A stretch of 64,000 nucleotides of DNA from Terriglobia bacterium (lineage in GTDB: Bacteria > Acidobacteriota > Terriglobia > Bryobacterales > Bryobacteraceae). The stretch is taken from positions 96,670 through 160,669 of the forward strand of contig JAIQEX010000001.1 of NCBI GenBank assembly GCA_020073615.1. Direction: 5' to 3'. This document shows, piece after piece, positions 17,591 to 45,209 of the stretch; position 1 is the stretch's first letter; each line of letters opens with the position of its first letter. Made by a program: the position numbers and the translations under genes. Under the pieces are notes generated by a model. It saw only the letters and a list, made by a program, of their open reading frames with translations, searched no databases and was not told the origin of the DNA.

Positions 17591-17633
17591 AATTCTCTCC
17601 GGCCGCGGCGGAAACGCGAGAACACTGAAGATA

Positions 17634-25921: not shown

Positions 25922-26002
25922 AACTGCCGGCCGCGTTCGATTCCAGGTTACTGCGAACGCACGGCGAATCACAATCGGCCGCGCGGACGTACAATCTGGA
26001 GG

Positions 26003-26752
26003 ATGTCTTCCCTAAGGATCGCCGTCGTCGGCACGCCGCGTTCCGGTAACACCTGGGTCCGGTACGTCCTGGGCGATGCCCTCGACCTGCAGCAGATGAT
26101 GCCGGTCCACAATCCGCGGGACATCGCACCGGAGCTGCCGGAGCGTGCGGCGTTGCAGATTCACTGGTATCGCGAGCCCAATTTTCAGGCGTTCCTGCGC
26201 ACCAACGGATTCCGCGTAGTGGTGGTCGCGCGCCACCCCCTCGACGTACTCATTTCCGCCCTGCACTTCCGGCGGCGCGAATGGAGCCTGGTCCGCTGGC
26301 TGGAAGGCAACGCCGAGTTCCCGCCCGACTTCGCGGAGTACGCGCCTGCGTCGCCGTCCTTCGTCGCCTACGCCACCAGCTGGGGCGCCGAGAATCTGCT
26401 CTCCGTGTCCTATCAGTGGTGGCACGACCGCGACGCCATCCGGGTTCGCTACGAGCAACTGGTACGCGAGCCGGTGGCGGCGTTCACCAGTCTGGTCGAG
26501 CAGTTGAACGAGCCCGCCGACCGGGTGGCCAAGGCGATCGAAGCGAACCCGTTCAAGGCCATGCAGGATCTTCCCAACAAGCATGGCTGGCGCGGCACGC
26601 CGGGTCTCTGGCGCCAGCTCATTCCTCCCCTGGACGCGTGGCGCATCTTCCGGCGCCATCGCCGCGTGTTCGACACCCTCGGTTACGGCATCCCCCCTTA
26701 CCTGCTGACGCGGCGCGCGGCTCTGAGAAACTGGCAGCGCCTCGCCATCTAA
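26003..26752 (+). CDS. PAPS-dependent sulfotransferase family protein
   Basis: [23 protein letters not shown] (5'-phosphosulfate loop type) and [17 protein letters not shown] (3'-phosphate-binding type). Confidence 0.8.
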
Positions 26753-26770: not shown

Positions 26771-27673
26771 CTAAAAATACCCCTCCCGCTTTTTGATTTC
26801 CATGGAGCCTTCCTGGTCGTGGTCGATCACGCGGTTCTCGCGCTCGGAGCGGCGAAACGTCGGCAGCTCCCCGACGATCTCCGCTACCGTGGCTGCCGTG
26901 GAACGGATCGCCCCGGTGCAGTACGTGCAGCCGAGCGAGCGCATGCGGCACACGATCCTCTGCGTCTTCTCGCCCGGCACCAACGGAGGCTGGTGCTCGA
27001 AGGGGATGATCGTGTCTCCGCGAACCAGCACCTCGCGCTCCGCCGCAAAATAGAGCGGCACCACGGGAATGTTCTCCGCCTGGATGTACTGCCAGATGTC
27101 CATTTCGGTCCAATTGGAAAGCGGAAACACCCGGATGCTCTCGCCTTTTTCGATGCGTCCGTTGAAAAGATTCCAGGGTTCGGGGCGCTGGTTTCGAGGA
27201 TCCCACTGTCCCTTGGGGTCGCGGAAGGAGTAGATGCGCTCCTTGGCGCGGGATTTTTCCTCTTCCCGGCGCGCGCCTCCCAGGGCGGCTTCAAAGCCGC
27301 CCTCGGCGAGCGCATCGAGCAGGGCCGTAGTTTTCAACAGGGCGCAGCATCGCTGCGTGCCCAGCCGGAAAGGGTCCGCGCCCGCATCGACCGCCGCGCG
27401 ATTCGTGTGGACGATGAGATGGAGTCCCAACTCACGGCAGGTGCGGTCGCGGAATTCGATCATCTCGCGAAACTTAAAGGTGGTGTCGATATGCAGCAGG
27501 GGGAAGGGCAGCGTGGCCGGGTAGAACGCTTTCTGCGCCAGCCGCAGCATCACCGAGGAGTCCTTGCCCACGGAGTAGAGCATGACCGGCCGGGCGAATT
27601 CGGCAGCCACCTCACGAAAAATGTGGATGCTCTCGGCCTCGAGCACTTGCAGATGAGAGAGCGTATCGGACAC
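26771..27673 (-). CDS. cysD: Sulfate adenylyltransferase subunit 2
   Basis: [74 protein letters not shown] start at 27673. Confidence 0.95.
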
Positions 27674-27674
27674 G

Positions 27675-28427
27675 TCAGAAGCCCCTTCCCAGCCCCTTGT
27701 GCAGCACGATAGCGCCGAGCAGCATTGCCCAGAGCAGCACCGTGACGCGCAGTATCCGGGCGGGAAGCACACCGGCCAGCCAGGCGCCCAAACAGGCGCC
27801 GGCCACACCGCTGGCCAGCAGGGGGAACAGCACAACACGGCTCCAGCTTCCCGCGGTCACGTGCACAAGGCTCCCCGCAACGGATACGGCCAGACCGAAG
27901 ACGAGGTCGGTTCCGACCACCGCCACCGGCGACAGCTTGCTGAGACTGTACAGCAGGACGGTTCCCAGCGCGCCCGCGCCGGCCGAGGAAAAGCCGGTCG
28001 ACACCCCGATGGGGAAACTGAGGAGCAGCAGCAACCAGGGCCGCTCCCGATGGCGGACTGGATCCCGAACGAAACGGAGCAGGCCGAAGCCGGCGGAAAC
28101 CAATACGGTCGCGCCGATGACGGTCAAGATCAAACCATCCCGGCTATCATGCAGCCGCTCGAGCACCGCCGAGCCAAAGACCGCACCCGGTACGCCTCCG
28201 GCCACCATGTAGGGGAGCGTTCGGAGATCAACCTGCCTGCGATACAGATAGAGCAAGGCCGCGTTGACCTTTACCGCCGAAGAAAAAAGAAGCGCCGTTC
28301 CCACGCTTTGTGCCGGGGGCACACCGAAGAACAGGATCAGAAGCGGGGCCGCCAATAATCCGCCGCCAATCCCGGTGGTGCCAATAGCCAACCCGATGAA
28401 GGCACCGAGCAGCATCACCATACTCAT
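27675..28427 (-). CDS. TauE/SafE family sulfite exporter-like permease
   Basis: Multi-[52 protein letters not shown]; adjacent to cysD on the same strand. Confidence 0.85.
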
Positions 28428-29581: not shown

Positions 29582-30358
29582 GTGAAAGTTGTGATTCTAT
29601 GCGGCGGATTGGGCACGCGCCTCCGCGAGGAGACCGAATTCCGTCCCAAACCCATGGTGGAAGTCGGCGGCAGGCCGATTCTGTGGCACATCATGAAGTC
29701 CTACGCCCACTACGGCTTCCGCGATTTTGTGTTGTGCCTGGGCTACCGCGGCAACGCGATTAAAGACTACTTCCTGAATTACGAGGCGATGAATAACGAT
29801 TTCTCCATTTGTCTGGGGCAGAAATCGCAGATCCGCTACCACGGCCTCCACGGCGAGCAGGGCTTCAGCGTGACCCTGGCCGACACCGGCGCCGAATGCA
29901 TGACCGGCGGACGCATCCGCAAGATCCGCAAATACATCGACACCCCCTCGTTCCTGCTCACCTACGGCGATGGGGTGTGCGATGTGGATATCCGCGGACT
30001 CGCCGACTTTCACCAGAGCCACGGCAAGATCGCCACAGTCACCACCGTGCCGCCGATTTCCCGCTTCGGCATGATCGAACTCGGCGGCGAGAGCCGCGTT
30101 CACCGGTTTACCGAAAAACCGAAAACCGATGGCTGGATGAGCGCCGGATTCTTCGCGCTCAAACAGGAGGTGTTCGATTACCTGGGCGGAGACGATTGCA
30201 TTTTCGAGCGCGACCCCCTGGAACGGCTCGCCGCCGAGGGCCAATTGATGGCCTACCGGCACGACGGGTTCTTCTACGCCATGGACACCTATCGGGAATA
30301 CCAGCACCTGAACAGTTTGTGGAGTTCCGGCGCCGCTCCCTGGAAGGTGTGGGCGTGA
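29582..30358 (+). CDS. rfbF: Glucose-1-phosphate cytidylyltransferase
   Basis: [64 protein letters not shown]. Confidence 0.96.
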
Positions 30359-31329
30359 AGGGCGGCTTCTGGCGGGATCATCGGGTGCTGGTCACCGGTG
30401 CCACCGGGCTGGTGGGCGCCTGGCTCACACGCCGCCTGCTGGAAGCGGGAGCGGACGTGGTCGCGGTGGTGCGCGATTGGGTCCCGCAAAGCGAGCTGGT
30501 CCGCACGCGGACCATCGACCGGGTCAGCGTGGCGCGCGGGGATGTTCGCGACCGCGACTTCCTCGAGCGCGTAATCGGCGAATACGAAACCCAAACCGTG
30601 ATCCACCTGGCCGCGCAGACCATTGTCGGAATCGCCAACCGCAACCCCGTCTCCACGTTCGAAAGCAATATTCAGGGCACGTGGAACCTGCTGGAGGCCT
30701 GCCGCCGCTCGCCGGGAGTTCGTTCCATCGTGGTGGCGTCGTCCGATAAGGCCTACGGCGATCGGGACGCGCTGCCCTACTCCGAAGACACTCCGCTCGC
30801 CGGCCGGCACCCCTACGACGTGAGCAAATCCTGCGCCGACCTGCTGGCGCAGTCCTACGCGGCCACCTATGGCCTGCCGGTGGCCGTCACCCGCTGCGGG
30901 AATTTCTACGGCGGCGGCGATCTGAACTGGAACCGCATCGTGCCCGGCACCATCCGCTCCGTGCTGCGCGGGGAGCGGCCGGTGATCCGCTCCGACGGCC
31001 AGTTTGTCCGCGACTATTTTTACGTGGAGGATGGCGCCGCGGCCTACATGCTGCTGGCCGAGCAGCTCCACTGCCGCCCGGATCTGCACGGCCTCGCCTT
31101 CAACTTTTCCAACGAAAGCGAAATCGCCGTGCTCGGCCTCGTGAACCGCATCCTGGGCGCCATGCAGTCGGAGTTGGAGCCGGTGGTGCACAACGAGGCC
31201 TCGAACGAAATCCGCCGCCAGTCGCTCAGCGCCGCGCGGGCGCGCCAGATGCTCCGCTGGTCGCCGCTCTACACGCTGGATGAGGGGATGGAGCGCACCA
31301 TCTCCTGGTACCGGGAGTTTGTCGCGTGA
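30355..31329 (+). CDS. rfbG: CDP-glucose 4,6-dehydratase
   Basis: [91 protein letters not shown] overlap with rfbF. Confidence 0.95.
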
Positions 31330-32657
31330 CCCAGCGAGGCCTCGAGTTGCGCGAACAGATTCTCCGCCTGACCGGGGAGTACTGCCGTGAGGCGTTCCCG
31401 GCGCAGGCTTTCGTGGCCGGGGAAACGGCCGTCCCGGTGGCGGGCAAGGTCTTCGATTCGGCGGAGATGCGCCTGCTGGTGGATTCCGCGCTCGATTTCT
31501 GGCTCACCACCGGCCGTTTCGCGGCCCGCTTCGAGCGCGAATTCGCGCGCTGGTCGGGCGTGCGCGAGTGCGTGCTGGCGAACTCCGGATCTTCCGCCAA
31601 CCTGCTGGCGGTCTCGGCGCTGACATCGCCGTCGCTGGGCGACCGCCGCCTGGCGCCCGGCGATGAAGCGATCACCGTCGCCGCCGGCTTCCCCACCACC
31701 GTGAACCCGCTCTTCCAGAACGGCCTGGTCCCGGTTTTCGTGGACGTCGCCATCCCCACCTACAACGTGGATGTCACGCAGTTGGAGGCGGCGCTTTCGC
31801 CGCGCACGCGCGCGCTGATCCTGGCGCACACGCTCGGCAATCCCTTCGACGTGGACGCCGTCGCCGCCTTCGCCCGCAAACACAACCTGTGGCTGATCGA
31901 AGACTGCTGCGACGCCCTCGGCGCCACCTGGCACGGCCAGAAAGTGGGCGCCTTCGGCGACCTCGCCACCACCAGTTTCTACCCCGCGCACCACATCACC
32001 ATGGGCGAGGGCGGCGCGGTGCTCACCAGCCAGCCCGCCCTGCGCCGCCTGCTGGAATCCTTCCGCGACTGGGGCCGCGACTGCTGGTGCGCGCCGGGAT
32101 GCGACGATACCTGCGGCCGGCGGTTCGACCGGCAGCTCGGCGATCTCCCCGCGGGCTACGACCACAAGTACACCTACTCGCACATCGGCTACAACCTCAA
32201 GCCGACCGACATGCAAGCCGCGGTGGGCGTGGCCCAGTTGCCCAAGCTGGACGGTTTCATCAAGGCGCGGCGCCGCAATTTTCAGCTCCTGCGCGACGGC
32301 CTGCGCGGCCTCGAGGAGTTCTTCATCCTCCCGGAAGCCACCGCCGGGAGCGACCCGAGCTGGTTCGGCTTCCCCATCGCCGTGCGCCCCGGCGCGCCCT
32401 TCTCGCGCAACCAGGTGACGCGCCACCTGGAAGAGCGCAAGATCGCCACCCGCCTGCTGTTCGGCGGCAACCTGACGCGCCAGCCCGCCTACCGCGGCCG
32501 GGAATATCGCGTGGCGGGGTCTTTGCAGAACACGGATTTCGTGATGGACCAGGTGTTCTGGATCGGGCTGTATCCGGCCATTACGCCGGCCATGGTGGAG
32601 TACATGATCGAAAGCCTCGCAAGCGTCGCTTCGCTTGCCGTAGGGACGGGAGTTTGA
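31326..32657 (+). CDS. rfbH: CDP-4-dehydro-6-deoxyglucose 3-dehydratase (RfbH/DdhC, DegT-fold)
   Basis: [34 protein letters not shown]-type PLP fold and Cys/His-rich RfbH region; [22 protein letters not shown] overlap with rfbG. Confidence 0.95.
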
Positions 32658-32659
32658 CC

Positions 32660-33547
32660 ATGCAGGGCACAACGCAGGAAGTATCGATCGGCAACAAAAA
32701 GATGGGCGACGGTCATCCGTGCTTCATCATCGCCGAGATCGGAATCAACCATAACGGAGACATCGACCTCGCGCGCCGGCTGATCAGCGTGGCGGTGGCC
32801 GCCGGCTGCGATGCCGTCAAGTTTCAGAAGCGCACCATCGATGTGGTCTACACCCCCGCCGAGCTGGCCAAGCCGCGCGAAAACCCGTTCGGAGAAACCA
32901 ACGGAGATTTGAAACGGGGGCTCGAGTTCGGGTACGACGACTACCGGCTAATCGACCGCTATTGCCGCGAGGTGAGGATGCCCTGGTTCGCTTCCTGCTG
33001 GGACGAGCGCTCGGTGGATTTCATCGAACGCTTTGACCCGCCGTGCTACAAGATCGCCTCCGCGTCGCTCACGGATGACAACCTGCTCCGCTATACACGC
33101 GCGATCGGCAAGCCGGTGATTCTCTCGACCGGCATGAGCACCGTTCCGGAAATCGATCATGCGGTGGAGGTGCTGGGCACAAAGGATCTCGTGCTGCTGC
33201 ACGCATGCAGCGCCTACCCCGCGTACTATCCGGAGCTGAACCTGAAAGCCATCGTGACGCTGCGCGAACGCTATGGCGTGCCAGTCGGCTATTCCGGCCA
33301 TGAAACCGGGCTGCCCTCGACGGTCGCCGCCGTGGCTCTCGGCGCCTGCTCGGTGGAGCGCCACATCACGCTGGACCGCTCGATGTGGGGCTCGGATCAG
33401 GCGGCTTCACTCGAACCGAACGGCATCACCAAGATCGTCAGTTACGTGCGCGTCGTCGAACAGTCGTTGGGCGATGGCGTCAAGCGCGTGGTGGAGCGCG
33501 AGCACGACGTCATCAAGAAATTACGCAGAATCCGCGCGGTCGCGTAA
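32660..33547 (+). CDS. NeuB-family (sialic-acid-synthase-like) PEP-dependent synthase, no SAF domain
   Basis: PCFIIAEIGINHNGDIDLARRLISVAVAAGCDAVKFQKRTID; GYSGHETGLPSTVAAVALGACSVERHITLDRSMWGSDQAASLEPNGI; about 295 aa. Confidence 0.9.
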   Translation: MQGTTQEVSIGNKKMGDGHPCFIIAEIGINHNGDIDLARRLISVAVAAGCDAVKFQKRTIDVVYTPAELAKPRENPFGETNGDLKRGLEFGYDDYRLIDRYCREVRMPWFASCWDERSVDFIERFDPPCYKIASASLTDDNLLRYTRAIGKPVILSTGMSTVPEIDHAVEVLGTKDLVLLHACSAYPAYYPELNLKAIVTLRERYGVPVGYSGHETGLPSTVAAVALGACSVERHITLDRSMWGSDQAASLEPNGITKIVSYVRVVEQSLGDGVKRVVEREHDVIKKLRRIRAVA

Positions 33548-33551
33548 CGCC

Positions 33552-34058
33552 ATGGCCACGATTCAAGCGCTCGCTCTCGATGTGGATGGCGTACTCACCG
33601 ATGGCGGCGTGTGGTGGGGCCCGGACGGCGCCGAATGGAAGCGCTTCTCGTTCGCGGACATCATGGGCGTCTCGCTGGCGCGCAAGGCGGGCCTGCTGGT
33701 GGCGCTCATCTCGGGCGAGGACAGCCCGCTGGTGGACCGGTTTGCGGCCAAGTTCCAGCTCACCGACGTCGCCAAGGGATGCAAAGACAAGGCCGCGGCA
33801 CTGGCCGCCTTTGCCGGCCGCCATAATCTGCCGCTCGACCAGATCTGCTTCATGGGCGACGACGTGAACGACCTCGCCGCCATGGAGATGGCCGGCCTGT
33901 CCGCCGCTCCGGCCAACGCGCAGGCCGCCGTCCTGGCGAAGGCGGACGTGATCACGGAGGCCGCGGGCGGCAACGGCGCGGTCCGCGAGCTCGTGGACCT
34001 GATTCTCGCGACCGCCGGGCGGCCCGTTCCGTCCGCCCGGTCTACCGTAACCACATGA
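33552..34058 (+). CDS. KdsC-like HAD-IIIA sugar-phosphate phosphatase
   Basis: ALDVDGVLTDGGVWWGPDGAEWKRFSFADIMGVSLARKAGLLVALISGEDSP...CFMGDDVNDLAAMEMAGLSAAPANA. Confidence 0.88.
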   Translation: MATIQALALDVDGVLTDGGVWWGPDGAEWKRFSFADIMGVSLARKAGLLVALISGEDSPLVDRFAAKFQLTDVAKGCKDKAAALAAFAGRHNLPLDQICFMGDDVNDLAAMEMAGLSAAPANAQAAVLAKADVITEAAGGNGAVRELVDLILATAGRPVPSARSTVTT

Positions 34059-35875
34059 TGAAACTCTCCGATTACGTCATGCAGTTTGTAGCCGCGCGCG
34101 GCGTGAAGCATGTCTTTCTCGTGACCGGCGGCGGGGCCATGCACTTGAATGCCTCGTTGGCCCAGTGCCTGGAGCTGGAGCCGGTTTGCAACTCCCACGA
34201 GCAGGCCAGCGCCATGGCGGCGGAGAACTACGCCAAAGTAACCAACAATCTCGGAGTTGCCCTGGTGACAACCGGGCCGGGCGGCACGAATGCGATCACG
34301 GGTGTCGCCGGCGCGTGGCTGGATTCCACGCCGGTGCTGATCCTCTCGGGGCAGGTGAAGCGCCCCGACCGCATGTTCGCCCCCGACGGAACGCCGCTGG
34401 GAATGCGCCAGCTCGGCGTGCAGGAAGTGGATATCGTCTCCATTGTCCGGCCGATCACTAAATACGCGATCACCGTGCTCGATCCCGCCAGTATCCGGTT
34501 CCACCTGGAAAAGGCCGTGTACCTGGCGCGGAGTGGCCGCCCCGGCCCGGTGTGGCTCGATATTCCGCTGGACGTGCAGGCGGCGCAGATCGATGAAACC
34601 GCGCTGCCCGGCTTCGAACCGGAGCCGGCCTGCGAAGATGCCGGGCTGCCGGACAAGGTGGCCGAAACCGTCGCCGCGCTCAATCGCGCGCAGCGGCCGC
34701 TGCTGTTCATCGGCAATGGCGTGCGCCTGGCCGGTGCCGAAAACGCCCTGCGCGAGTTATTCCAAAGGCTGCGGATTCCCGCAGTGGCAACGTGGTGCGC
34801 CGCCGATATCATTTCCTCCGAGGACCCCTTATTTGTCGGCCGCCCCGGATCGCTGGCTTCCCGCGGCGCCAATTTCGCCCTGCAGAATTGCGATTTTCTG
34901 CTCAGCGTCGGCGCCCGGCTGGACTTTGCCATCACCGGCTACGCACCCGAAAAATTCGCGCGCGCGGCGCACAAGGTGATGGTCGATATCGATCCCGCCG
35001 AGATTCGCAAGCTCGCTCCCCACATTCACACGCCGGTCTGCGCGGATGCCGGCGCGTTTCTGCGCGAGATGTTACACCAGGCGGAAACGGTCACGCGCGC
35101 GGACCGCACCTGTTGGCAGAAGCGCTGTGCCGACTGGAAAACCCGTTACCCGGTGGTGCTGCCCGAGCATCGGCGTCCCGCAGGGCGGGTCAGCATCTAT
35201 CACCTTGCCGAGGTCATCCACCAGGAAACGACCGCCGAAGACCTTATGGTCTCCGGCACCGCGGGCAGCGCCATTGAAATCTTCCTCTTCGCATGCCCCA
35301 CCCGCGCGGGCCAGCGTATCTACCACACCGCCGGCCTGGGTTCGATGGGCAACGGTCTCCCCGGCAGCATCGGCGTTTGTCTGGCGAGTGGTCGCCGCCG
35401 CACGGTCTGCGTGGATGGCGATGGCGGCTTTCAGTTCAACATTCAAGAACTGGAGACGGTAGCGCGGTTGAACCTGCCGATTAAGTTTTTCGTGCTGAAC
35501 AACGACGGCTACGCGTCGGTCCGCGGCTCGCAAGCCAACTTCTTCGGCGCGCCGCAGATCGGCTGCGATGCGCAGACAGGACTGACCGTGCCCGACATCT
35601 GTAGGGTCGCAGACTCGTATGGCTTGAAAACCTTCCGCATCGCTTCGCAAGCAAACCTGTCCCTGGATGTGCGGAATGTGCTGGAAACGCCCGGCCCGGT
35701 GGTGTGCGACGTCCAGGTCATCCCCGACGAAATTCGCGGGCCGCGTCTGGCTTCTATGCAGCTTCCCGACGGCTCGATGGTGTCGAAGCCGCTGGAGGAC
35801 CTGTGGCCGTTCCTCGATCGCGAGGAGTTTTTTGCCAATATGATCGTGTCGCCGCTCGAGGAATCGATGGCATGA
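34055..35875 (+). CDS. Thiamine-diphosphate-dependent enzyme (acetolactate-synthase-like superfamily)
   Basis: NSHEQASAMAAENYAK (catalytic Glu), LVTTGPGGTNAITGVAGAWLDSTPVLILSGQV, VDGDGGFQFNIQELETVARLNLPIKFFVLNNDGY (ThDP/Mg motif). Confidence 0.92.
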   Translation: MMKLSDYVMQFVAARGVKHVFLVTGGGAMHLNASLAQCLELEPVCNSHEQASAMAAENYAKVTNNLGVALVTTGPGGTNAITGVAGAWLDSTPVLILSGQVKRPDRMFAPDGTPLGMRQLGVQEVDIVSIVRPITKYAITVLDPASIRFHLEKAVYLARSGRPGPVWLDIPLDVQAAQIDETALPGFEPEPACEDAGLPDKVAETVAALNRAQRPLLFIGNGVRLAGAENALRELFQRLRIPAVATWCAADIISSEDPLFVGRPGSLASRGANFALQNCDFLLSVGARLDFAITGYAPEKFARAAHKVMVDIDPAEIRKLAPHIHTPVCADAGAFLREMLHQAETVTRADRTCWQKRCADWKTRYPVVLPEHRRPAGRVSIYHLAEVIHQETTAEDLMVSGTAGSAIEIFLFACPTRAGQRIYHTAGLGSMGNGLPGSIGVCLASGRRRTVCVDGDGGFQFNIQELETVARLNLPIKFFVLNNDGYASVRGSQANFFGAPQIGCDAQTGLTVPDICRVADSYGLKTFRIASQANLSLDVRNVLETPGPVVCDVQVIPDEIRGPRLASMQLPDGSMVSKPLEDLWPFLDREEFFANMIVSPLEESMA

Positions 35876-36759
35876 AGATCCTGATCACCGGCGGCAGCGG
35901 TTTCATCGGCCGGAACCTGAAGGAGCAGTACGCCGGCCGCTATCGGATTGTCGCTCCTTCCCGTGCCGAACTGAACTTACTCGACCCTGAAGCGGTGCGC
36001 ACATACCTGGAGAAGCAGCAGTTTGATGTCGTGATCCACGCTGCCACTGAGCGGTCTAACCGCCGCTTGGGCAGCCCACCCGACCTGTTCGAAAACAACT
36101 GCCGAATGTTCTTCAACCTCGCGCGTAGCGAGCGGTACTTTGGGCGCATGCTGTTCCTGAGTTCCGGGGCGGTCTACGGACGAACGCAAGCCTGTCGCGT
36201 CCCGGAGACAGCTTTTGACGCCCGTGTTCCGGCCGAGCCCTACGGGTTTTCCAAGTACGTCTGCGCCAAGGCGATCGCTGCTATGGACCGGGTCCACGAA
36301 CTGCGCCTGTTTGCCGTTTTTGGCCGGTACGAAGACTGGCAGGTGCGCTTCATTTCGAACGCCTGCTGCCGTGCGGTGTGGAATCTTCCGGTGGTCATTC
36401 GGCAGAACGTGTTGTTCGACTATCTCGATGTCGAAGACCTGGGCTGGATATTGGATTGTTTTCTGCGGAAGGATCTTCAGCATCGGCATTATAACGTCTG
36501 CACCGGCCGGGCCCTGGACCTGAAGTCGCTAGCGGAGAAGGTGGTGAGCGCATCCGGCAAGAAACTGGAAATCAGGGTCAATGGAGAAGGCCTAGGCCGC
36601 GAATACAGCGGTGACAACACACGCATGTTGGGTGAGATCCCCGATTTTCAGTTCCGAGGAATCGATGAGTCGATTGCGCTGCTCCTTCGCTGGTATGAAG
36701 AAAGAAAGGATTTGATTGACCCCAAATTACTAGGGTTCGATGAAATGAGTGAATCGTGA
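35872..36759 (+). CDS. NAD-dependent epimerase/dehydratase (extended SDR)
   Basis: MKILITGGSGFIGRNLKEQY; FLSSGAVYGRTQ; YGFSKYVCAKAI. Confidence 0.9.
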   Translation: MKILITGGSGFIGRNLKEQYAGRYRIVAPSRAELNLLDPEAVRTYLEKQQFDVVIHAATERSNRRLGSPPDLFENNCRMFFNLARSERYFGRMLFLSSGAVYGRTQACRVPETAFDARVPAEPYGFSKYVCAKAIAAMDRVHELRLFAVFGRYEDWQVRFISNACCRAVWNLPVVIRQNVLFDYLDVEDLGWILDCFLRKDLQHRHYNVCTGRALDLKSLAEKVVSASGKKLEIRVNGEGLGREYSGDNTRMLGEIPDFQFRGIDESIALLLRWYEERKDLIDPKLLGFDEMSES

Positions 36760-37574
36760 TAGGCATCATGCAGGGCAGGTTAGTCGAGCCGGTGGAGGGC
36801 CGGATACAGGCGTTCCCGCGCGAGCAGTGGGCAGTTGAGTTTCCGAATGCCGCGGCTGCTGGTCTGGAAGCCATCGAGTGGATTTACGACACCTACGGCT
36901 TAGGCGCCAACCCTCTGGAGAATCCACAGGGGATTTCCCGTATCAACCAGCTTTCGCGCAACCACGGCGTCGCAGTGCGCTCGGTGTGCGCCGATTATTT
37001 CATGGATTTTGCGTTTGTCCGCGCTTCGGAAGCGGACCGCGCGCTGCGTCTGGATAAGCTCGTCTGGCTGCTCGGAGAGGCCCGCCAAATCGGCGTCACC
37101 CGGATTGTGCTGCCGTTCGTAGATCAGTCGGCCATCTGTAATGAAGCTGATCGGGATGCAGTCGTCGAGGTGCTGCAACGTGTGCTGCCCGTGGCGCGCT
37201 CCCTCACGATTGAACTTCACCTGGAAACGGGCCTCGCGCCGGACGATTTCGCGGCCTTATTGGCGCGCGTGCCCGATCCATTTGTAAAGGTGAATTACGA
37301 TTCGGGCAACAGTTCCTCACTGGGGTATCGGCCGTCGGAAGAACTGGCAGCGTACGGGCGGCGACTGGGCAGCGTTCACATTAAGGATCGCGTCCGGGGC
37401 GCCGGAACCGTGCCCTTGGGACAGGGCGATGCGAATTTCGACGAGCTCTTTACGGGATTGCGGAGCCTGAACTATCAGGGTGATTTCATCCTGCAAGTCG
37501 CGCGCGCCACAGCAAGCGATGAAGTCGCTTGGGCTCGCCACAACGTGGCATTCATAAAAAGGTACTGGAACTAA
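36756..37574 (+). CDS. Sugar phosphate isomerase/epimerase (xylose-isomerase-like TIM barrel)
   Basis: MIGIMQGRLVEPVEGRIQAFPREQWAVEFPNAAAAGLEAIEWIYD; LTIELHLETG; VKVNYDSGNSSSLGY; GSVHIKDR; GTGA overlap with upstream gene. Confidence 0.85.
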   Translation: MIGIMQGRLVEPVEGRIQAFPREQWAVEFPNAAAAGLEAIEWIYDTYGLGANPLENPQGISRINQLSRNHGVAVRSVCADYFMDFAFVRASEADRALRLDKLVWLLGEARQIGVTRIVLPFVDQSAICNEADRDAVVEVLQRVLPVARSLTIELHLETGLAPDDFAALLARVPDPFVKVNYDSGNSSSLGYRPSEELAAYGRRLGSVHIKDRVRGAGTVPLGQGDANFDELFTGLRSLNYQGDFILQVARATASDEVAWARHNVAFIKRYWN

Positions 37575-37575
37575 A

Positions 37576-38346
37576 ATGGACCTCGGGCTCAGAGATCAGG
37601 TTGTTTTCGTGGCCGGATCCTCCCGTGGCATCGGGAAGGGCATCGCCAGCGTGTTCCTGGAGGAAGGCGCGCGGGTCGTCCTCACGGGACGCGATACCAC
37701 CGCGCTGTCCAGTGCTTGCGCGGAACTCTCGAACGGCCGCGCGGATCGCGTCATGACCTTCCATGGCGACCTGGTGGAAGTTGCCACAATCCAGGAGGCT
37801 TATCGTCAGGTCCGGATGCAGTGGGGTGACGTTCACACTCTGGTCTGCAATATCGGCAGCGGCACGGCAGCAAACGGGTGGCAGATCACAGCATCGGACT
37901 GGGATGCCGCGTTTGCGATGAACCTCTGGGCCAGTATCAGGCTCGTGGAAGTTTTTCTGCCGGAAATGATCGAAGCACGCCACGGCAACATCATATTCAT
38001 CAGCTCCATCACGGGGTTGGAGAGTCTGGGCGCTCCGCTTCAGTACGGCGCTGCCAAGGCGGCGCTCGAGCATTACAGCAAGGACCTCTCCCGGCGCGTC
38101 GCGCGGGACGGAATCCGCGTGAACACCGTGGCCCCCGGCAACATTCTCTTTCCAGGCGGATCATGGCAGCGAAAACTCGACGTCGATTCAGCCGCCACTT
38201 TGTCCATGATAGCGGCCGAAGTACCTATGGGCAGGTTCGGTCGGCCCGAGGACATCGGCGCGGCCGTGGCGTTTCTCGCGTCGGACCGGGCCTCGTTCAT
38301 CACCGGAGCCTGCATCGTGGCTGATGGAGGGCAGACCAGGGCATGA
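37576..38346 (+). CDS. Short-chain dehydrogenase/reductase (SDR 1)
   Basis: VVFVAGSSRGIGKGIASVFLEEGARVVLTGRD; YGAAKAALEHYSKDLSRRVARDGIRVNTVAPGN; ITGACIVADGG. Confidence 0.93.
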   Translation: MDLGLRDQVVFVAGSSRGIGKGIASVFLEEGARVVLTGRDTTALSSACAELSNGRADRVMTFHGDLVEVATIQEAYRQVRMQWGDVHTLVCNIGSGTAANGWQITASDWDAAFAMNLWASIRLVEVFLPEMIEARHGNIIFISSITGLESLGAPLQYGAAKAALEHYSKDLSRRVARDGIRVNTVAPGNILFPGGSWQRKLDVDSAATLSMIAAEVPMGRFGRPEDIGAAVAFLASDRASFITGACIVADGGQTRA

Positions 38347-39173
38347 CCGACCTCTTTGACCTCATCGGACGCGTAGCCGTCATTACCGGTGGCGCCGGCT
38401 TGCTCGGCGTCAAGCACGCGGAAGTGATCGCCGCACACGGCGGCATTCCCGTTCTGGTGGACATCGTCTCCGCATGTGCCGCGGCTCTGGACCTGGCGGA
38501 TCGATACCACGTGCCGGCCTGCGCGTATCAGACCGACATCACCGATCCGGCCGCCGTTCGCAGCCTGTTGGACAACGTCCTGGCACGGTTTAACCGGCTC
38601 GACATTCTCATCAACAATGCGGCCAATAATCCCAAGGTCGAAAAAACCGGAACCGAAAACTTTTCCCGCTTCGAGAACTTTCCGCTGGAGCAGTGGCTGG
38701 CGGACCTCAGCGTCGGGCTGACGGGGGCCTACCTTTGCAGCCAGGTGTTCGGCAGTTACATGGCGCGACAGTTTCAACAGTGCGGGAGACGCGGCGTCAT
38801 TCTCAACATCGCGTCCGACCTCGCTGTGATCGCGCCCGATCAGCGCATTTACCGGCAGCCCGATGTGCCCGACCATCTACAGCCTGTCAAGCCGGTTACC
38901 TATTCGGTAGTGAAGACCGGACTGGTAGGTCTCACGCGATATCTGGCAACGTACTGGGCGGATTCGGGCGTGCGCGTGAACGCGATTTCGCCAGGGGGCA
39001 TTTACAACGGACAGCCGGAAGCGTTTGTCCAGAAACTGGCGAACCTGATTCCCATGGGCCGCATGGCCCATGCCGATGAATACCAGGGTGCTGTGCTGTT
39101 TCTGGTTTCCGACGCTTCTTCTTACATGATGGGGCACAACCTGGTCATAGATGGAGGCCGGACGGCATGGTGA
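38343..39173 (+). CDS. Short-chain dehydrogenase/reductase (SDR 2)
   Basis: VAVITGGAGLLGVKHAEVIAAHGGIPVLVDI; YSVVKTGLVGLTRYLATYWADSGVRVNAISPGG; MMGHNLVIDGG. Confidence 0.93.
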   Translation: MTDLFDLIGRVAVITGGAGLLGVKHAEVIAAHGGIPVLVDIVSACAAALDLADRYHVPACAYQTDITDPAAVRSLLDNVLARFNRLDILINNAANNPKVEKTGTENFSRFENFPLEQWLADLSVGLTGAYLCSQVFGSYMARQFQQCGRRGVILNIASDLAVIAPDQRIYRQPDVPDHLQPVKPVTYSVVKTGLVGLTRYLATYWADSGVRVNAISPGGIYNGQPEAFVQKLANLIPMGRMAHADEYQGAVLFLVSDASSYMMGHNLVIDGGRTAW

Positions 39174-40024
39174 AGCAGGGGAACGATCGATATGCCGCCG
39201 GCACTCTCTTTTCCCTGGAGGGCAAGACGGTTTTGCTGACAGGGGCGAGCGGCTTTCTGGGCCGGACCATGGTGCGGGCCTTGCTCGACAACGGAGCGGC
39301 CGTGCTCATGCTGGGCGCTTCGGAGCGGGTGGCCGCTCAAGTTCCCGCGCTTGCCGGCGAGTACGGACCCGGCCGGATCGCCGCCTATCGCGTGGACCTT
39401 TACGACCTCCCTGCCGCGGAGACGGCGCTCTCGCTCATCGATCGCGAACACCCGGTCATTGATGTGATTGTGAACAACGCGCACGAACTTGGGTCGCGCA
39501 CAGGCTTCAATGTACCCGAGGGGCACCTGGAAAATGCCACATTCGACGGCTGGATGCGTAACCTCACTGGCGGCGTTTACTGGGCCGCTCTCACAACGCA
39601 AAAAATCGGCGCCGGGATGAAGAGCCGTGGGAAGGGGAGCATCGTGAATATCTCGACGATGTATGCGGTTGTCGCTCCCAGCCCGCACCTCTATGAAGGA
39701 ACGCGGTTCATCAATCCTCCGGGGTATGGCGCTGCCAAGGCTGCACTGGTAGCCTTCACGCGATACACGGCATCCTTTTGGGGGCCATATGGCGTGCGCG
39801 CCAACGCCATCTTACCCGGGCCGTTTTCCAATGTCGAGGAAGGCGCTGAAAACTCCGTTTCCGCCGCCGACCCGTTCCTGGACCGGCTCAGATCGCGAAC
39901 CGTCCTCGGAAGAGTAGGAGCCCCCGGCGAATTAGTCGGAGCGCTGCTGTATCTTGCCTCCGATGCCTCGACGTTTACCACCGGCCAGGCCCTGGTCGTG
40001 GATGGGGGATGGACTATTGTCTAG
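39167..40024 (+). CDS. Short-chain dehydrogenase/reductase (SDR 3)
   Basis: KTVLLTGASGFLGRTMVRALLDNGAAVLMLGASE; YGAAKAALVAFTRYTASFWGPYGVRANAILPGPF; TTGQALVVDGG. Confidence 0.93.
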   Translation: MVKQGNDRYAAGTLFSLEGKTVLLTGASGFLGRTMVRALLDNGAAVLMLGASERVAAQVPALAGEYGPGRIAAYRVDLYDLPAAETALSLIDREHPVIDVIVNNAHELGSRTGFNVPEGHLENATFDGWMRNLTGGVYWAALTTQKIGAGMKSRGKGSIVNISTMYAVVAPSPHLYEGTRFINPPGYGAAKAALVAFTRYTASFWGPYGVRANAILPGPFSNVEEGAENSVSAADPFLDRLRSRTVLGRVGAPGELVGALLYLASDASTFTTGQALVVDGGWTIV

Positions 40025-41186
40025 AGCCTGTTGCGTTTGCGAAAGTCCGGAGAAGCAAACCCTCTTTCGGCAGCCGCTGGAATTGCCGGAAGGCTGTTCG
40101 TACAACGGGTATAACATTGTCGCGTGCCTGAGATGTGGCTTCCTGTATGCGGATAGTTCGGCTCCTCAGCCGGCTTGGGATCGCCATTATAACAGTTCAA
40201 CCAAGGTCGCGCAGTCCCTCGCACAAAACAGCGAGCCGCCCGAGGACATCGTTCGGCTTGACAATAGCATGACTCACATCCGGCGTTCCCTAAACCCGGA
40301 AGCTAGTTTGCTCGATATCGGCTGCGGGACAGGCTATTTGTTAAGCCGTCTAAGACAGGATGGGTTACAAAAACTTTCCGGGATCGATCAGTCGCCGGTC
40401 GCAGCCGGTATCGCCCGCACCAAGTACGGCCTTGATGTGACAGTCGGCAGCATATTTGACTACCACAGCACTCCGGTGGACTTCATCACCGTATGTCACG
40501 TTTTAGAGCATGTCGCCGATGTCGCGGGTTTTCTCAGGCACATCTACGGACTATTGGCGAACGGCGGCACGGTGTACATCGAGGTGCCGGATGCATCTCA
40601 GTTCGATTGCTTTGTCGATCCGCTCTCCACGAACGCCTGGATTTACATGAAAGACCTGTTTACGCATTTCAGCCCGGAACACGTCAATTTCTTTTCGGTG
40701 GTCTCATTGCGGAATCTGATGACTCGCTTCGGGTTCGAAGCCGTATTTTGCGAGTCGGACCCTCTCGGAGTTGTCGTTTCGGCCTGGCGCAGGCCAAGCC
40801 TGGAGCCGGATTGTAAAGCAAGGGAAGTACTCCTTCGTTATGCTGCAAAGTCGCGACAACTGCAGAACCGAGCGATGGAGATAATCGACAGTCTGGCTGA
40901 CTCGGGTGCGGAGGTGGTCGTGTGGGGCGCCGGCCTCCATACACAAAGGCTGCTGGCTTCGGGTAACCTGCGATCGGTAAATATTCTTGCGTACGTGGAC
41001 TCTGACCCGTCCTACCAAGGAGCCCTGTTGGCGGGAAGGCCAATCCTGCGTCCAGAAGAGATTGGGTTATTGAATGGCAAGCCAGCCATCCTGATTTCTT
41101 CATGGAAAGCGCAACGCGGTATTGGAAAGGCGATTGAGTCAATGGGTATACCCAATCGGGTTATCTACTTGTATGAGAATCGGTAG
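40017..41186 (+). CDS. Sugar C-methyltransferase (zinc-binding N-term, SAM domain, Methyltransf_14-like C-term)
   Basis: LSRACCVCESPEKQTLF...VACLRCGFLYAD; LLDIGCGTGYLLSRLRQDGLQKLSGIDQS; C-term VVVWGAGLHTQRLLASGNL. TTG start inferred. Confidence 0.82.
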   Translation: MSRACCVCESPEKQTLFRQPLELPEGCSYNGYNIVACLRCGFLYADSSAPQPAWDRHYNSSTKVAQSLAQNSEPPEDIVRLDNSMTHIRRSLNPEASLLDIGCGTGYLLSRLRQDGLQKLSGIDQSPVAAGIARTKYGLDVTVGSIFDYHSTPVDFITVCHVLEHVADVAGFLRHIYGLLANGGTVYIEVPDASQFDCFVDPLSTNAWIYMKDLFTHFSPEHVNFFSVVSLRNLMTRFGFEAVFCESDPLGVVVSAWRRPSLEPDCKAREVLLRYAAKSRQLQNRAMEIIDSLADSGAEVVVWGAGLHTQRLLASGNLRSVNILAYVDSDPSYQGALLAGRPILRPEEIGLLNGKPAILISSWKAQRGIGKAIESMGIPNRVIYLYENR

Positions 41187-41219
41187 CATGCTCGCAAATT
41201 TGGGGAGAGGGAATTTCTG

Positions 41220-42413
41220 ATGTCGCGGCGCCGAGCATTCGCGCAGCGGCAATGCCCCGTTTGTGGCAGCGGCAGGTCCAGACTTCTGTTTCACCAATCA
41301 TTTGAGCGGCTTTTGCACGTGGAGTTATTAGAAGGCTACGACGTCATCGTCTGCCTGGATTGCGGCGCAGGCTTCGCAGATGACATTCCGGAGCAGTCGG
41401 TTTTCGATGATTATTATCGGGATCTCTCGAAATATGACAATGCGGTCCGTGGCGGGAAAGAGTCGCCGGCTTCCAAAAGTCGTTTCGAGGAGGCGGCCTC
41501 GGGGATCGAGACGTTTGTTGAGACCCAGGATGCCCGTATTCTTGAGATCGGCTGTGGTTCCGGTCACCTCCTGGACGCCCTAGCGCGACGAAGCTTCGCC
41601 AATTTACGCGGCGCCGATCCATCTCCCGCTTGCGCAAGCGTTGCGGGTGAGAAGAGCGTACCTGTAGAGGTGGCCACGGTTTCCAGCATTCCTGCGCCAG
41701 AAAAGCCGTATGATTTCTTGATATTGATGGGCGTGATCGAGCACATTCGCGATCTCGATTGCACGGTTGATCAGTTTCATCGCCTTCTCAGAATAGGTGG
41801 GCGCGTGTACATCGAAGTGCCCGATGGAAGCAGGCTTGACCCGAGTCTCGATGCTCCATTTCAGGAATTCAGCATGGAGCACATTAACTTTTTTTCCACA
41901 AGGTCACTGACAAACCTGATGCACCGCCGAGGATTCCGAGCGATTGCGACGGGACGGGCCAGGCGAGCACAGAATGAGACGATTTGCTTGTCAGCCTATG
42001 GTGTCTACGAGAGATCATACGGGCCAAGTCCGATGGAAAGGGACACTGAGACCGAGCGCGGGATTGCGGCATACGTCCAGGGATGCCAATTGCAGGATTC
42101 GCGAATCCGCAGCAGAATTGAGGAGGCGCTCCCTCGAGGCGAAAAAATGACTGTTTGGGGCGTGGGCACTCACACCCTTCGCTTGCTAGCCACCGGAGGG
42201 CTGGATCCTAGCAGGATCTCAGTATTTGTCGATTCCAACCCGAAATATCAGCGGCACACATTGCGCGGGATTCCGGTTATTTCTCCAGGCGAGATGAAAG
42301 GGCACTCCGAGCCCATACTGATCTCATCGCGAGGTTTTCAGCGTGAGATTCACGACCAGATTCGCAATCGGTTGGGCCTGACCAATCGCCTCATCCTGCT
42401 TTACGAGACATGA
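41220..42413 (+). CDS. Sugar C-methyltransferase, paralogue of preceding gene
   Basis: RQCPVCGSGRSRLLF...VIVCLDCGAGFADD; ILEIGCGSGHLLDALARRSFANLRGADPS; C-term MTVWGVGTHTLRLLATGGL. Confidence 0.84.
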   Translation: MSRRRAFAQRQCPVCGSGRSRLLFHQSFERLLHVELLEGYDVIVCLDCGAGFADDIPEQSVFDDYYRDLSKYDNAVRGGKESPASKSRFEEAASGIETFVETQDARILEIGCGSGHLLDALARRSFANLRGADPSPACASVAGEKSVPVEVATVSSIPAPEKPYDFLILMGVIEHIRDLDCTVDQFHRLLRIGGRVYIEVPDGSRLDPSLDAPFQEFSMEHINFFSTRSLTNLMHRRGFRAIATGRARRAQNETICLSAYGVYERSYGPSPMERDTETERGIAAYVQGCQLQDSRIRSRIEEALPRGEKMTVWGVGTHTLRLLATGGLDPSRISVFVDSNPKYQRHTLRGIPVISPGEMKGHSEPILISSRGFQREIHDQIRNRLGLTNRLILLYET

Positions 42414-42422
42414 GGCCAATCT

Positions 42423-42488
42423 ATGACATTCCTTCAACTCTATTTGTGCCGCAGAATCGAAGAACGGGTGACCGGAGGGCTGCTGTGA
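42423..42488 (+). pseudogene. Relic of a gmhA-like gene 3' end
   Basis: Alternate-frame reading MTFLQLYLCRRIEERVTGGLL* matches intact GmhA C-terminus HYLCRGIEERVIAAAL* at 45165-45209; 34 of 45 nt identical over the aligned block including the stop. Confidence 0.6.
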
Positions 42489-43429
42489 AGACGGTGGGCG
42501 TCCTGCCGCTCGAAGAACCGAAATCGGCCGATATCTTTGTGCCGGACGAGATCTTCGAGATGGCCGCTCAATCGGTCGGAGCCTTCTTCGAGCCGCTCTG
42601 TAAAGTCGGCCGCCAGGCCAACGCCAGGGACTTCCTCGAACTTTCCAAATCGTTCAAACGCGCGGGCATCCTGCGGAGGTATGTGGATCTCGAGCGGAAG
42701 AAAGTATTGGAAGTGGGCTCCGGTTTCGGCACGAACCTGGCGGTGTGGATCCGGCACTTCGACGCGGATGCCTACGGCGTCGAGCCGGGCGGCACCGGTT
42801 TCAACCAGGGATACATCGCTTCGCGCAAGCTGCTTGCCGCCAATGGCATCGACCCCGACCGCGTAGTCGACTCGGCGGGCGAATCCCTGCCGTTTCCCGA
42901 CGAGAGTTTCGATATCGTCTACTCGGCCAACGTGCTGGAGCACACCGAAGACCCGCAGCGCGTACTGATGGAGTCGCTGCGCGTGCTCCGGCCCGGCGGA
43001 TGGCTTCACATGGAATTGCCGAATTTCCTTTCGTATTTCGAGGGCCACTACATGGTGGTGCAGCCACCGATCCTCTGGAAACCGATGCTGGCGTGGTGGG
43101 TACGGCTGGTGTTTCGGCGGGACCCCGCATTTGCCCGCACGCTCCAGACCGGGATCAACCCCATTTGGTGCCGGCGGCAGGTGAAAAAGGCGGGAAAGGT
43201 CTACCCGCTCGAACTTATTTCCCTTGGAGAAGATCTGTTTCTCGAGCGGTTGTCACAGGCTTTCACCTTCGAAATGCAGATGGTCGCCAGTCGCGCCGGT
43301 GGGTTGATCGCCGCGCTGCAAAGGATTAACCGGGGGAACTGGGCCGGCCGCGTCATCGTAGCGCTTCAGGGCCACTATCCTATCTACCTGACGCTGCGGA
43401 AAACAGTGACACAACGAGCATCGTCATGA
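42485..43429 (+). CDS. Class I SAM-dependent methyltransferase
   Basis: KKVLEVGSGFGTNLAVWIRHFDADAYGVEPGG; DIVYSANVLEHTEDPQRVLMESLRVLRPGGWLHMELPNF; GTG start at 42485 chosen; ORF is open to 42410. Confidence 0.85.
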   Translation: MKTVGVLPLEEPKSADIFVPDEIFEMAAQSVGAFFEPLCKVGRQANARDFLELSKSFKRAGILRRYVDLERKKVLEVGSGFGTNLAVWIRHFDADAYGVEPGGTGFNQGYIASRKLLAANGIDPDRVVDSAGESLPFPDESFDIVYSANVLEHTEDPQRVLMESLRVLRPGGWLHMELPNFLSYFEGHYMVVQPPILWKPMLAWWVRLVFRRDPAFARTLQTGINPIWCRRQVKKAGKVYPLELISLGEDLFLERLSQAFTFEMQMVASRAGGLIAALQRINRGNWAGRVIVALQGHYPIYLTLRKTVTQRASS

Positions 43430-43541: not shown

Positions 43542-44555
43542 GTGAAGACCATCAGTATTATTACCCCGTGCTTCAACGAAGAAGCCAACGTCCAGGAAGT
43601 CTACCGTCGCGTCCGCGCGGTTTTGGCCGGCCTGGGCCGCTATCGCTACGAGCACATCTTCATCGACAATTCCTCTACCGATGGCACGGTTGCCGTTCTA
43701 AAAGAGATCGCGGCGGAAGACACCAACGTCAAGGTAATCGTCAACGCGCGGAACTTCGGGCATGTCCGCTCGCCTATGCACGCGCTGTGTCAGGCCTCGG
43801 GCGATGCCGTCGTCGGCCTCGTCGCCGATCTGCAGGACCCGCCGGAGATGATCGCCGACATGGTGCGCGAGTGGGAAAACGGATACTCCATGGTGCTCGG
43901 CATCAAGCGTACCAGCGAAGAGAAGCCGCTCATGTTCTGGGTGCGGCAACGGTACTACCGCCTGGTCAAACGGCTGTCCTCCATCGAGACCTTCGAGAAC
44001 TTCACCGGGTTCGGCCTCTACGACCGGCGCGTGGTGGACCTGGTCAAATCTTTCCAGGATCCGTACCCCTACTTCCGCGGCATGATCGCCGAAATCGGGC
44101 TGCCCCACAAGAAGCTGTATTACGACCAGCCGGCCCGCAAGCGGGGCATCACCAAGAACAACTTCTACTCGCTGTATGACCTCGGCATGTTGGGCATTAT
44201 CAACCACTCCAAGGTACCGCTGCGGCTGACCGCATTTGCCGGCTTCCTGGGCGCCATGGCATCGTTTCTCGCCGGGTTCGGATACTTCCTCTATAAGCTT
44301 CTGTTCTGGAACCGCTTTTCCGTGGGAATTGCCCCCCTGGTCATCGGCATCTTCTTCCTGGGCTCGGTGCAACTGGTGTTCATGGGCATCCTCGGAGAAT
44401 ATGTCGGCGCGATCCATACCCAGGTGCAGCACCGGCCCTTTGCGGTCGAGCTGGAACGCGTCAATTTCGAATACGAACCTCGGCTCCCGGCCGCGGACCG
44501 CGCGCCTTCCGCCGAAGATACCGGGGCGGTAGCCGCCGTTGCCCAGGGAGCGTAG
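43542..44555 (+). CDS. Glycosyltransferase family 2 with C-terminal TM helices (DPM1/GtrB/ArnC-like)
   Basis: MKTISIITPCFNEEANVQEVYRRVRAVL; DNSSTDGTVAVLKEI; VGLVADLQDPPEMIADMVREWENGYSMVLGIK; two C-terminal TM segments. Confidence 0.92.
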   Translation: MKTISIITPCFNEEANVQEVYRRVRAVLAGLGRYRYEHIFIDNSSTDGTVAVLKEIAAEDTNVKVIVNARNFGHVRSPMHALCQASGDAVVGLVADLQDPPEMIADMVREWENGYSMVLGIKRTSEEKPLMFWVRQRYYRLVKRLSSIETFENFTGFGLYDRRVVDLVKSFQDPYPYFRGMIAEIGLPHKKLYYDQPARKRGITKNNFYSLYDLGMLGIINHSKVPLRLTAFAGFLGAMASFLAGFGYFLYKLLFWNRFSVGIAPLVIGIFFLGSVQLVFMGILGEYVGAIHTQVQHRPFAVELERVNFEYEPRLPAADRAPSAEDTGAVAAVAQGA

Positions 44556-44633
44556 CACACTCGTCCGCATCCGGTCGATCCGCGGCGGCCGGCATCCGTT
44601 GCTAGCCCGGCCGGTATAATGCATACGGCCTCT

Positions 44634-45209
44634 ATGTCCCTGCGCGAATATCTGGCGGAGTCAACCGATGTGCTGCAACGTGCCGCTGAAGCCATCGGTC
44701 AAGCTGTAATGGATGCCGCCATTGGTGCGGTGGTGGGAGCGCTATCGGACAACAAACCGCTGCTGGTCTGCGGCAACGGCGGCTCGGCCTCGGATGCCAT
44801 GCACATCACCGGCGAGCTGGTGGGCCGCTTCCTCCAGGAGCGCCGGCCGCTCAAAGCCATCTGCCTCTCGTCCAACCCCTCGGTGATAACCGCCTGGAGC
44901 AACGACTACAGCTATGACTCCGTCTTCGCGCGCCAGGTCGAAGCCTATGGCGATTCGGGCGCCGCAATCCTGGGCATCAGCACCTCGGGTAACGCGAAAA
45001 ACGTCGTAGCCGCCTTTGCGCAGGCACGGACCATGGGAATGACTACCATCGCCCTCACCGGCGAAGGCGGCGGTGCGCTGGCGCCGCTGGCGGACCATCT
45101 CCTCGCCGTGCCCTCGCGGAGCACGCCGCTGATCCAGCAGGTGCACGTCTGCCTCTATCACTACTTGTGCCGCGGAATCGAAGAGCGCGTGATCGCGGCG
45201 GCTCTATGA
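44634..45209 (+). CDS. gmhA: D-sedoheptulose-7-phosphate isomerase-like SIS protein
   Basis: PLLVCGNGGSASDAMHITGELVGRFLQERRPLKAICLSSNPSVITAWSNDYSYDSVFARQVEAYG; AILGISTSGNAKNVVAAFAQA. Confidence 0.9.
   Translation: MSLREYLAESTDVLQRAAEAIGQAVMDAAIGAVVGALSDNKPLLVCGNGGSASDAMHITGELVGRFLQERRPLKAICLSSNPSVITAWSNDYSYDSVFARQVEAYGDSGAAILGISTSGNAKNVVAAFAQARTMGMTTIALTGEGGGALAPLADHLLAVPSRSTPLIQQVHVCLYHYLCRGIEERVIAAAL

Follow-up and report, generated by a model that had tools for sequence, protein, structure and literature searches.

Mycobacteria, and bacteria that live in soil or with plants, carry caryophyllose-type sugars on their surface. Caryophyllose itself, 3,6-dideoxy-4-C-(D-altro-1,3,4,5-tetrahydroxyhexyl)-D-xylo-hexopyranose (PMC5706390), is a C12 sugar in which C4 bears a hydroxylated C6 chain (PMC7821131). 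Long 4-C-branched sugars made by thiamine diphosphate (ThDP) enzymes have already been described. The yersiniose enzyme YerE takes pyruvate as its donor, ErwE of Pectobacterium atrosepticum (erwiniose) favors longer 2-keto acids with hydroxyl groups, and MMAR_2332 of Mycobacterium marinum, which has been assigned to caryophyllose, had a donor preference like that of ErwE in a first assay, with its acceptance of ketones unproven (PMC12247030). A 2024 in silico study, as cited in that paper, lists more than 200 YerE-like enzymes. Attachment of the caryophyllose-type side chain by a ThDP enzyme is thus known, and the origin of the long keto-acid donor was not described in the literature searched. 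Here, we analyzed a gene run in a 64,000-nucleotide stretch (the window) of a Terriglobia bacterium (assembly GCA_020073615.1, 98% complete; contig JAIQEX010000001.1, positions 96,670 to 160,669 of the forward strand). The run is probably a unit for the synthesis of a cytidine diphosphate (CDP)-activated, long 4-C-branched 3,6-dideoxyhexose of the erwiniose/caryophyllose type, in which the product of a NeuB-like and a KdsC-like enzyme most likely serves as the acyl donor for a YerE-like ThDP enzyme.

In the proposed pathway, RfbF, RfbG, and RfbH would convert glucose-1-phosphate to CDP-4-keto-3,6-dideoxyglucose, the reaction expected from their families. The NeuB-like protein would join phosphoenolpyruvate (PEP) to an aldose phosphate, and dephosphorylation by the KdsC-like enzyme would give a 3-deoxy-2-ulosonic acid, which is a 4-hydroxy-2-keto acid. 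The ThDP enzyme, predicted to be an ulosonate decarboxylase and C4-carboligase, would decarboxylate this acid, and the resulting acyl carbanion would be joined to the CDP-sugar at its C4 ketone, leaving a tertiary alcohol and a branch with a ketone beside a CH2. Short-chain dehydrogenases/reductases (SDRs) would reduce the branch ketone, while a TIM-barrel epimerase, other SDRs, and perhaps a GmhA-like isomerase would make or reshape the aldose. Methyltransferases would decorate the sugar, and a GT2 glycosyltransferase would hand it on to a surface glycan.

The locus shares with the erwiniose system a YerE-like ThDP enzyme and, as predicted here, a hydroxylated 2-keto acid as donor and CDP-4-keto-3,6-dideoxyglucose as acceptor. 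By the description in PMC12247030, the donors tested with ErwE were short (4-hydroxy-2-oxo-butanoate, -pentanoate, and -hexanoate), whereas the NeuB/KdsC pair predicts a polyhydroxylated ulosonate. Nonulosonic and ulosonic acid pathways of the Kdn-9-P type also use a PEP-dependent NeuB and a KdsC-type phosphatase, implying a phosphorylated aldose; however, the NeuB here has no SAF domain, and in place of a CMP transferase, which was not found in the genome, there is a ThDP enzyme. With yersiniose synthesis, the locus has in common the same acceptor and ThDP chemistry. The canonical yersiniose route includes a DdhD-type reductase, which was not found here, and its pyruvate donor requires no donor synthase. 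A plain yersiniose pathway is unlikely, as pyruvate would need neither NeuB nor KdsC.

Positions 29582 to 42413 are filled by 13 open reading frames on one strand, most of which overlap or lie a few bases apart. Stop and start codons overlap between rfbF (end, 30358) and rfbG (start, 30355), rfbG (31329) and rfbH (31326), the phosphatase (34058) and ThDP (34055) genes, the ThDP (35875) and extended SDR (35872) genes, the extended SDR (36759) and TIM-barrel (36756) genes, and those of classical SDRs 1 (38346) and 2 (38343). The remaining junctions as far as SDR 3 measure 2 to 7 bases. All six overlaps had been given exactly in the original prediction, made from the DNA letters, and the single transcription unit proposed there is plausible because of these overlaps and short junctions. 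Promoter and terminator scans gave no signal clearly above chance.

Gene families were assigned by Pfam and NCBIfam profile searches with the cut-offs of the models. The families named earlier were confirmed for RfbF, RfbH, a NeuB without SAF domain, the KdsC-like phosphatase, the ThDP enzyme, and the TIM-barrel protein; in the CDP-3,6-dideoxyhexose set, only RfbG, although the best match, stayed under its cut-off. Among solved structures, the ThDP enzyme scored 408 bits with JanthE (8rph), a YerE-like enzyme that joins 2-keto acids to ketones (PMC12188165), followed by 5ahk (270 bits); the scores with other acetolactate synthases did not exceed 244 bits. An identity as acetolactate synthase was rejected on these scores. 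The HEQ glutamate and the GDG...N cofactor motif are kept (E49, G455, D456, G457, and N483, among 12 relatives). The acceptor genes rfbFGH lie directly upstream. RfbH aligned at 585 bits with a CDP-4-keto-6-deoxyglucose 3-dehydrase (PDB 3bcx), both its C-x-C-x3-C-x3-C cluster and FYPAHH in the active site being kept, and so predicts CDP-4-keto-3,6-dideoxyglucose.

On the donor side, the NeuB-like protein has homologues in PDB 6ncs, PseI, and SpsE, and its PEP and metal residues (E26, K54, K131, H214, and H235) are invariant among 14 relatives. It probably works as NeuB does yet, by its scores with the equivalogs TIGR03569 (254 bits; cut-off, 400) and TIGR03586 (206 bits; cut-off, 340), belongs to neither. 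The phosphatase likewise falls under the thresholds of the KdsC and Kdn-9-P phosphatase equivalogs.

The association between donor and carboligase was surveyed in 104 loci, or 102 once two duplicates were removed. This set combined the ThDP homologues of 396 Acidobacteriota genomes with the 80 top-ranking loci obtained by scanning 85,000 species genomes. A known or likely 2-keto-acid-forming enzyme lay within 9 kb of the ThDP gene, often only tens of bases away, in 85 of the 102 loci: short NeuB in 28, a NeuB-SAF-cupin protein in 40, an HMGL/4-hydroxy-2-oxovalerate aldolase-like protein in 9, and an HpcH/HpaI-like protein in 8. Among loci with 5 kb or more of DNA upstream, the fraction was 67/80. 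None of 13 control RfbH loci, which lack a close ThDP homologue, had such an enzyme. NeuB, HMGL, and HpcH are separate Pfam families that likely share 4-hydroxy-2-keto acids as a product class, the class used by ErwE and, according to an initial assay, MMAR_2332 (PMC12247030). The NeuB-cupin fusion, carried for example by Terriglobus albidus DSM 26559 (L087), also had a weak D-lyxose-isomerase-like match, which is consistent with its making its own aldose.

On a quick ThDP tree with long outgroup branches, on which JanthE itself sits as a distant row, donor type required 19 changes, compared with 52 when shuffled, and the window enzyme fell with other short-NeuB loci in a well-supported group. 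Carboligase and donor type thus appear to have largely moved together, as expected if one makes the substrate of the other. Six homologues (L101, L104, L109, L111, L119, and L123; 44 to 48% to the window enzyme) formed a branch of their own, in genomes without RfbH and with no recognized donor enzyme nearby. Several further genes were confined almost wholly to the 28 short-NeuB loci relative to the 74 others, namely KdsC (23 versus 3), GmhA-like SIS (9 versus 1), TIM (10 versus 0), SDR2 (11 versus 1), and GFO oxidoreductase (8 versus 0), and therefore they probably make or modify the ulosonate.

No CMP-ulosonate cytidylyltransferase was found in the whole assembly, where the PF02348 matches were GlmU-like and MobA-like proteins (judged by eye) and none looked like KdsB. 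The lack of a CMP-sugar synthetase noted earlier for the window therefore extends to the assembly, and a donor role of the NeuB/KdsC product would explain it, the ulosonate being consumed by decarboxylation rather than activated. A CMP-nonulosonic acid pathway was rejected as the overall interpretation on the same ground. Among the Acidobacteriota sampled, short NeuB genes that lacked a ThDP partner had a CMP-ulosonate transferase alongside in four of five genomes, sometimes fused to KdsC, and none of the 28 short-NeuB ThDP loci had one. The ulosonate module appears to have two alternative outlets, the ThDP enzyme or the CMP transferase. These data also bear on the alternative that two independent pathways adjoin here, with RfbFGH and a pyruvate-using ThDP enzyme making a yersiniose-like two-carbon branch and the NeuB, KdsC, TIM, and SDR proteins making a nonulosonic-acid-like sugar. 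YerE itself does take pyruvate (PMC12247030), and the short NeuB/KdsC/SDR2/GFO module also occurs without ThDP, beside a CMP transferase. However, the genome yielded no CMP-ulosonate transferase, so the usual activation of the second sugar would be impossible; the donor-synthase type tracks the ThDP phylogeny, and other keto-acid-forming enzymes take the place of NeuB at the same position. We consider this alternative improbable.

RfbH was present in 21 of the 24 ThDP-positive Acidobacteriota genomes and in 11 of the 372 others (P = 6e-24). This association, with the donor survey and the tree, provides good support for the earlier proposal that RfbFGH, NeuB, and the ThDP enzyme join in making a branched or chain-altered deoxysugar. 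A ThDP enzyme acting independently of the CDP-keto sugar, as a lyase or simple decarboxylase that turns the ulosonate into a 2-deoxyaldose or chain-altered aldose for the SDRs and methyltransferases, is very unlikely: the acceptor seems dispensable for some members, given the six more distant homologues in genomes without RfbH, but in Acidobacteriota the link to RfbH is very strong, and JanthE, the closest characterized relative, couples keto acids to ketones.

A lack of co-occurrence of NeuB and ThDP genes elsewhere, which was to count against the original prediction, was not seen: the two co-occur in many phyla. A core of RfbFGH, short NeuB, KdsC, and ThDP genes was found again in members of Acidobacteriota, Verrucomicrobiota, Planctomycetota, Lentisphaerota, and Bacillota. 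An accidental assembly of sugar genes with no shared product might be suspected, since the window forms a large glycan locus that includes Wzm/Wzt-like, Gmd-like, and sulfation genes (partly by eye), but it is scarcely credible, being already contradicted by this conserved neighborhood in five phyla.

Several observations weigh against synthesis of a single branched sugar from a NeuB/KdsC-derived donor. The RfbG score lies below the cut-off of its own model (216 versus 278). A DdhD-type (E3) reductase partner for RfbH, already noted as absent from the window, was not found by profile search in the whole assembly; the genome had only two PF00175 matches, one marginal and the other beside hydrogenase-like genes and, as judged by eye, lacking an N-terminal ferredoxin domain. 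Fewer than half of the short-NeuB loci (14 of 29) had RfbH within 9 kb, partly because of contig ends; of 10 loci tested that had no neighboring RfbH, 6 belonged to genomes that encode it at another place. The roles given to the TIM-barrel protein, three SDRs, and the methyltransferases are guesses, and co-localization is compatible with the synthesis of two distinct sugars by neighboring genes.

The scheme can be compared with caryophyllose, whose C6 chain on C4 fits a decarboxylated 3-deoxy-2-ulosonate. A C7 3-deoxy-2-ulosonate that lost CO2, was added to C4 of a CDP-4-keto-3,6-dideoxyhexose, and was reduced would give the caryophyllose skeleton, and the CH2 of the branch (position 2) would derive from PEP. 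The genes were compared in M. szulgai rather than M. marinum. The M. szulgai locus has NeuB-cupin and ThDP genes beside RfbF, RfbG, and RfbH, and indirectly backs the caryophyllose scheme. It belongs to another phylum than the window and has NeuB-cupin instead of a short NeuB with KdsC. A sample of 149 genomes of its genus gave M. szulgai and two relatives.

The original prediction of a new nucleotide-sugar pathway was overstated insofar as long 4-C-branched sugars had already been described as products of YerE-like ThDP enzymes (PMC12247030). Neither a NeuB/KdsC-made donor nor the donor-synthase principle was found described in the literature searched, although earlier proposals are possible; PMC12247030 never mentions NeuB. 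If correct, the donor module would explain where the deoxy carbon lies in the branch, and the chain length of the product could be predicted from the donor genes. Many uncharacterized clusters across phyla would become testable predictions of one design with interchangeable parts, a design that suggests how caryophyllose-type sugars are made. Sialic-acid-type enzymes would gain a use other than CMP-sugars, and biocatalysis would gain a series of ThDP enzymes with which to make polyhydroxylated tertiary alcohols.

A wider scheme may be drawn, in which NeuB/KdsC, NeuB-cupin, and aldolases are exchangeable feeders of a ThDP carboligase and in which, here, heptose-7-phosphate from GmhA would lead to a C10 ulosonate, a C9 branch, and a C15 monosaccharide, larger than the C12 caryophyllose. 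As a whole, it is doubtful. The GmhA-like isomerase, a possible source of the aldose phosphate, is the sole full-length GmhA-like match in the genome, and a KdsC-GmhA-like SIS fusion directly follows short NeuB in four Clostridia loci (L099:8914-9972, L090, L120, and L132). Together, these hint at a heptose phosphate as the aldose for NeuB. As proof of such a substrate, GmhA is weakened by an HldE domain-I homologue in the genome, since it may serve another heptose pathway.

Table 1. Genes of the run and of its continuation (positions in the window)
Feature	Position	Strand	Basis or remark
RfbF/DdhA-type glucose-1-phosphate cytidylyltransferase	29582..30358	+	TIGR02623, 333 bits (cut-off 300)
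RfbG-like CDP-glucose 4,6-dehydratase, divergent	30355..31329	+	Best equivalog TIGR02622, 216 bits, below cut-off 278
RfbH/DdhC CDP-4-keto-6-deoxyglucose 3-dehydrase	31326..32657	+	NF011936, 721 bits (cut-off 423)
Short NeuB-like PEP-dependent ulosonate synthase, 295 aa	32660..33547	+	PF03102, 259 bits; no SAF domain
KdsC-like HAD phosphatase	33552..34058	+	TIGR01670, 119.7 bits (cut-off 107)
YerE/JanthE-like ThDP enzyme	34055..35875	+	All three TPP domains; nearest structure JanthE 8rph
Extended SDR (Epimerase/RmlD-like)	35872..36759	+	PF01370, 97 bits
TIM-barrel epimerase, AP_endonuc_2 family	36756..37574	+	PF01261; ketose 3-epimerase-like
Classical SDR 1	37576..38346	+	PF13561, 173 bits
Classical SDR 2	38343..39173	+	PF13561, 137 bits
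Classical SDR 3	39167..40024	+	PF13561, 130 bits
S-adenosylmethionine (SAM) methyltransferase 1	40002..41186 (start codon uncertain)	+	PF13489, 92 bits; PF08484, 27.1 bits (cut-off 23.5)
SAM methyltransferase 2	41220..42413	+	PF13489, 102 bits; no PF08484
SAM methyltransferase 3	42410..43429	+	PF08241, 65 bits; 4-nt overlap with methyltransferase 2
GT2 glycosyltransferase	43542..44555	+	PF00535, 95 bits
GmhA-like SIS isomerase	44619..45209	+	TIGR00441, 182 bits (cut-off 209)
Flippase-like protein	45249-46286		Continuation of run

As Table 1 shows, the run extends beyond 42413 with a third methyltransferase, the GT2 protein, the GmhA-like isomerase, and a flippase-like protein. The rfbF gene starts with GTG, preceded by GGGAGG, and rfbG homologues are adjacent in relatives too. 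Besides RfbG, four SDRs were found instead of the three first counted, one extended and three classical. The step that reduces the branch ketone in yersiniose was still uncharacterized in 2016 (PMC4753412), and the extended SDR, whose homologous cluster occurs in 15 sampled loci, several of them adjoining ThDP, is a candidate reductase for the new branch ketone. The model of the TIM-barrel epimerase had a pLDDT of 94, with UlaE L-xylulose-5-P 3-epimerase as the best fold, followed by tagatose/psicose 3-epimerases. Of the two C-methyltransferases proposed, the first touches PF08484 marginally and the second, whose homologous cluster occurs in 16 sampled loci, lacks it; C-methylation of the product is weakly supported by that single match. 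A similar GT2 occurs in 36 sampled loci and is a candidate user of the CDP-sugar.

Other ThDP loci may lead to different sugars. Seven YerE-like loci (L052, L053, L054, L055, and L117, also L042 and L127) carry a 3-dehydroquinate-synthase-like gene, mostly with HpcH/HpaI-like and SDR genes, and possibly make a carbocyclic or bradyrhizose-like branched sugar. Two loci (L170 and L171) combine RfbFGH with a ThDP enzyme at 32 to 34% and no donor enzyme; it is possibly YerE proper, at a score that cannot separate it from acetolactate synthase. A plasmid search with the ThDP enzyme gave matches at the acetolactate-synthase level only (about 33% identity). YerE-like ThDP genes also occurred on archaeal-labelled contigs from an uncultured archaeon (L068, also with RfbH and NeuB-cupin) and Candidatus Pacearchaeota (L104).

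Upstream of the run, CysN/CysC, CysD-like, and sulfotransferase genes (24122-25972 and 26771-27838, minus strand; 25913-26752, plus strand) suggest that the glycan of the locus may be sulfated. Further upstream, positions 16029 to 19642 (minus strand) encode a Wzm/Wzt-like ABC-2 exporter pair and GDP-mannose 4,6-dehydratase-like and GDP-fucose-synthase-like proteins (translations judged by eye), a putative ABC-exported O-antigen or exopolysaccharide locus.

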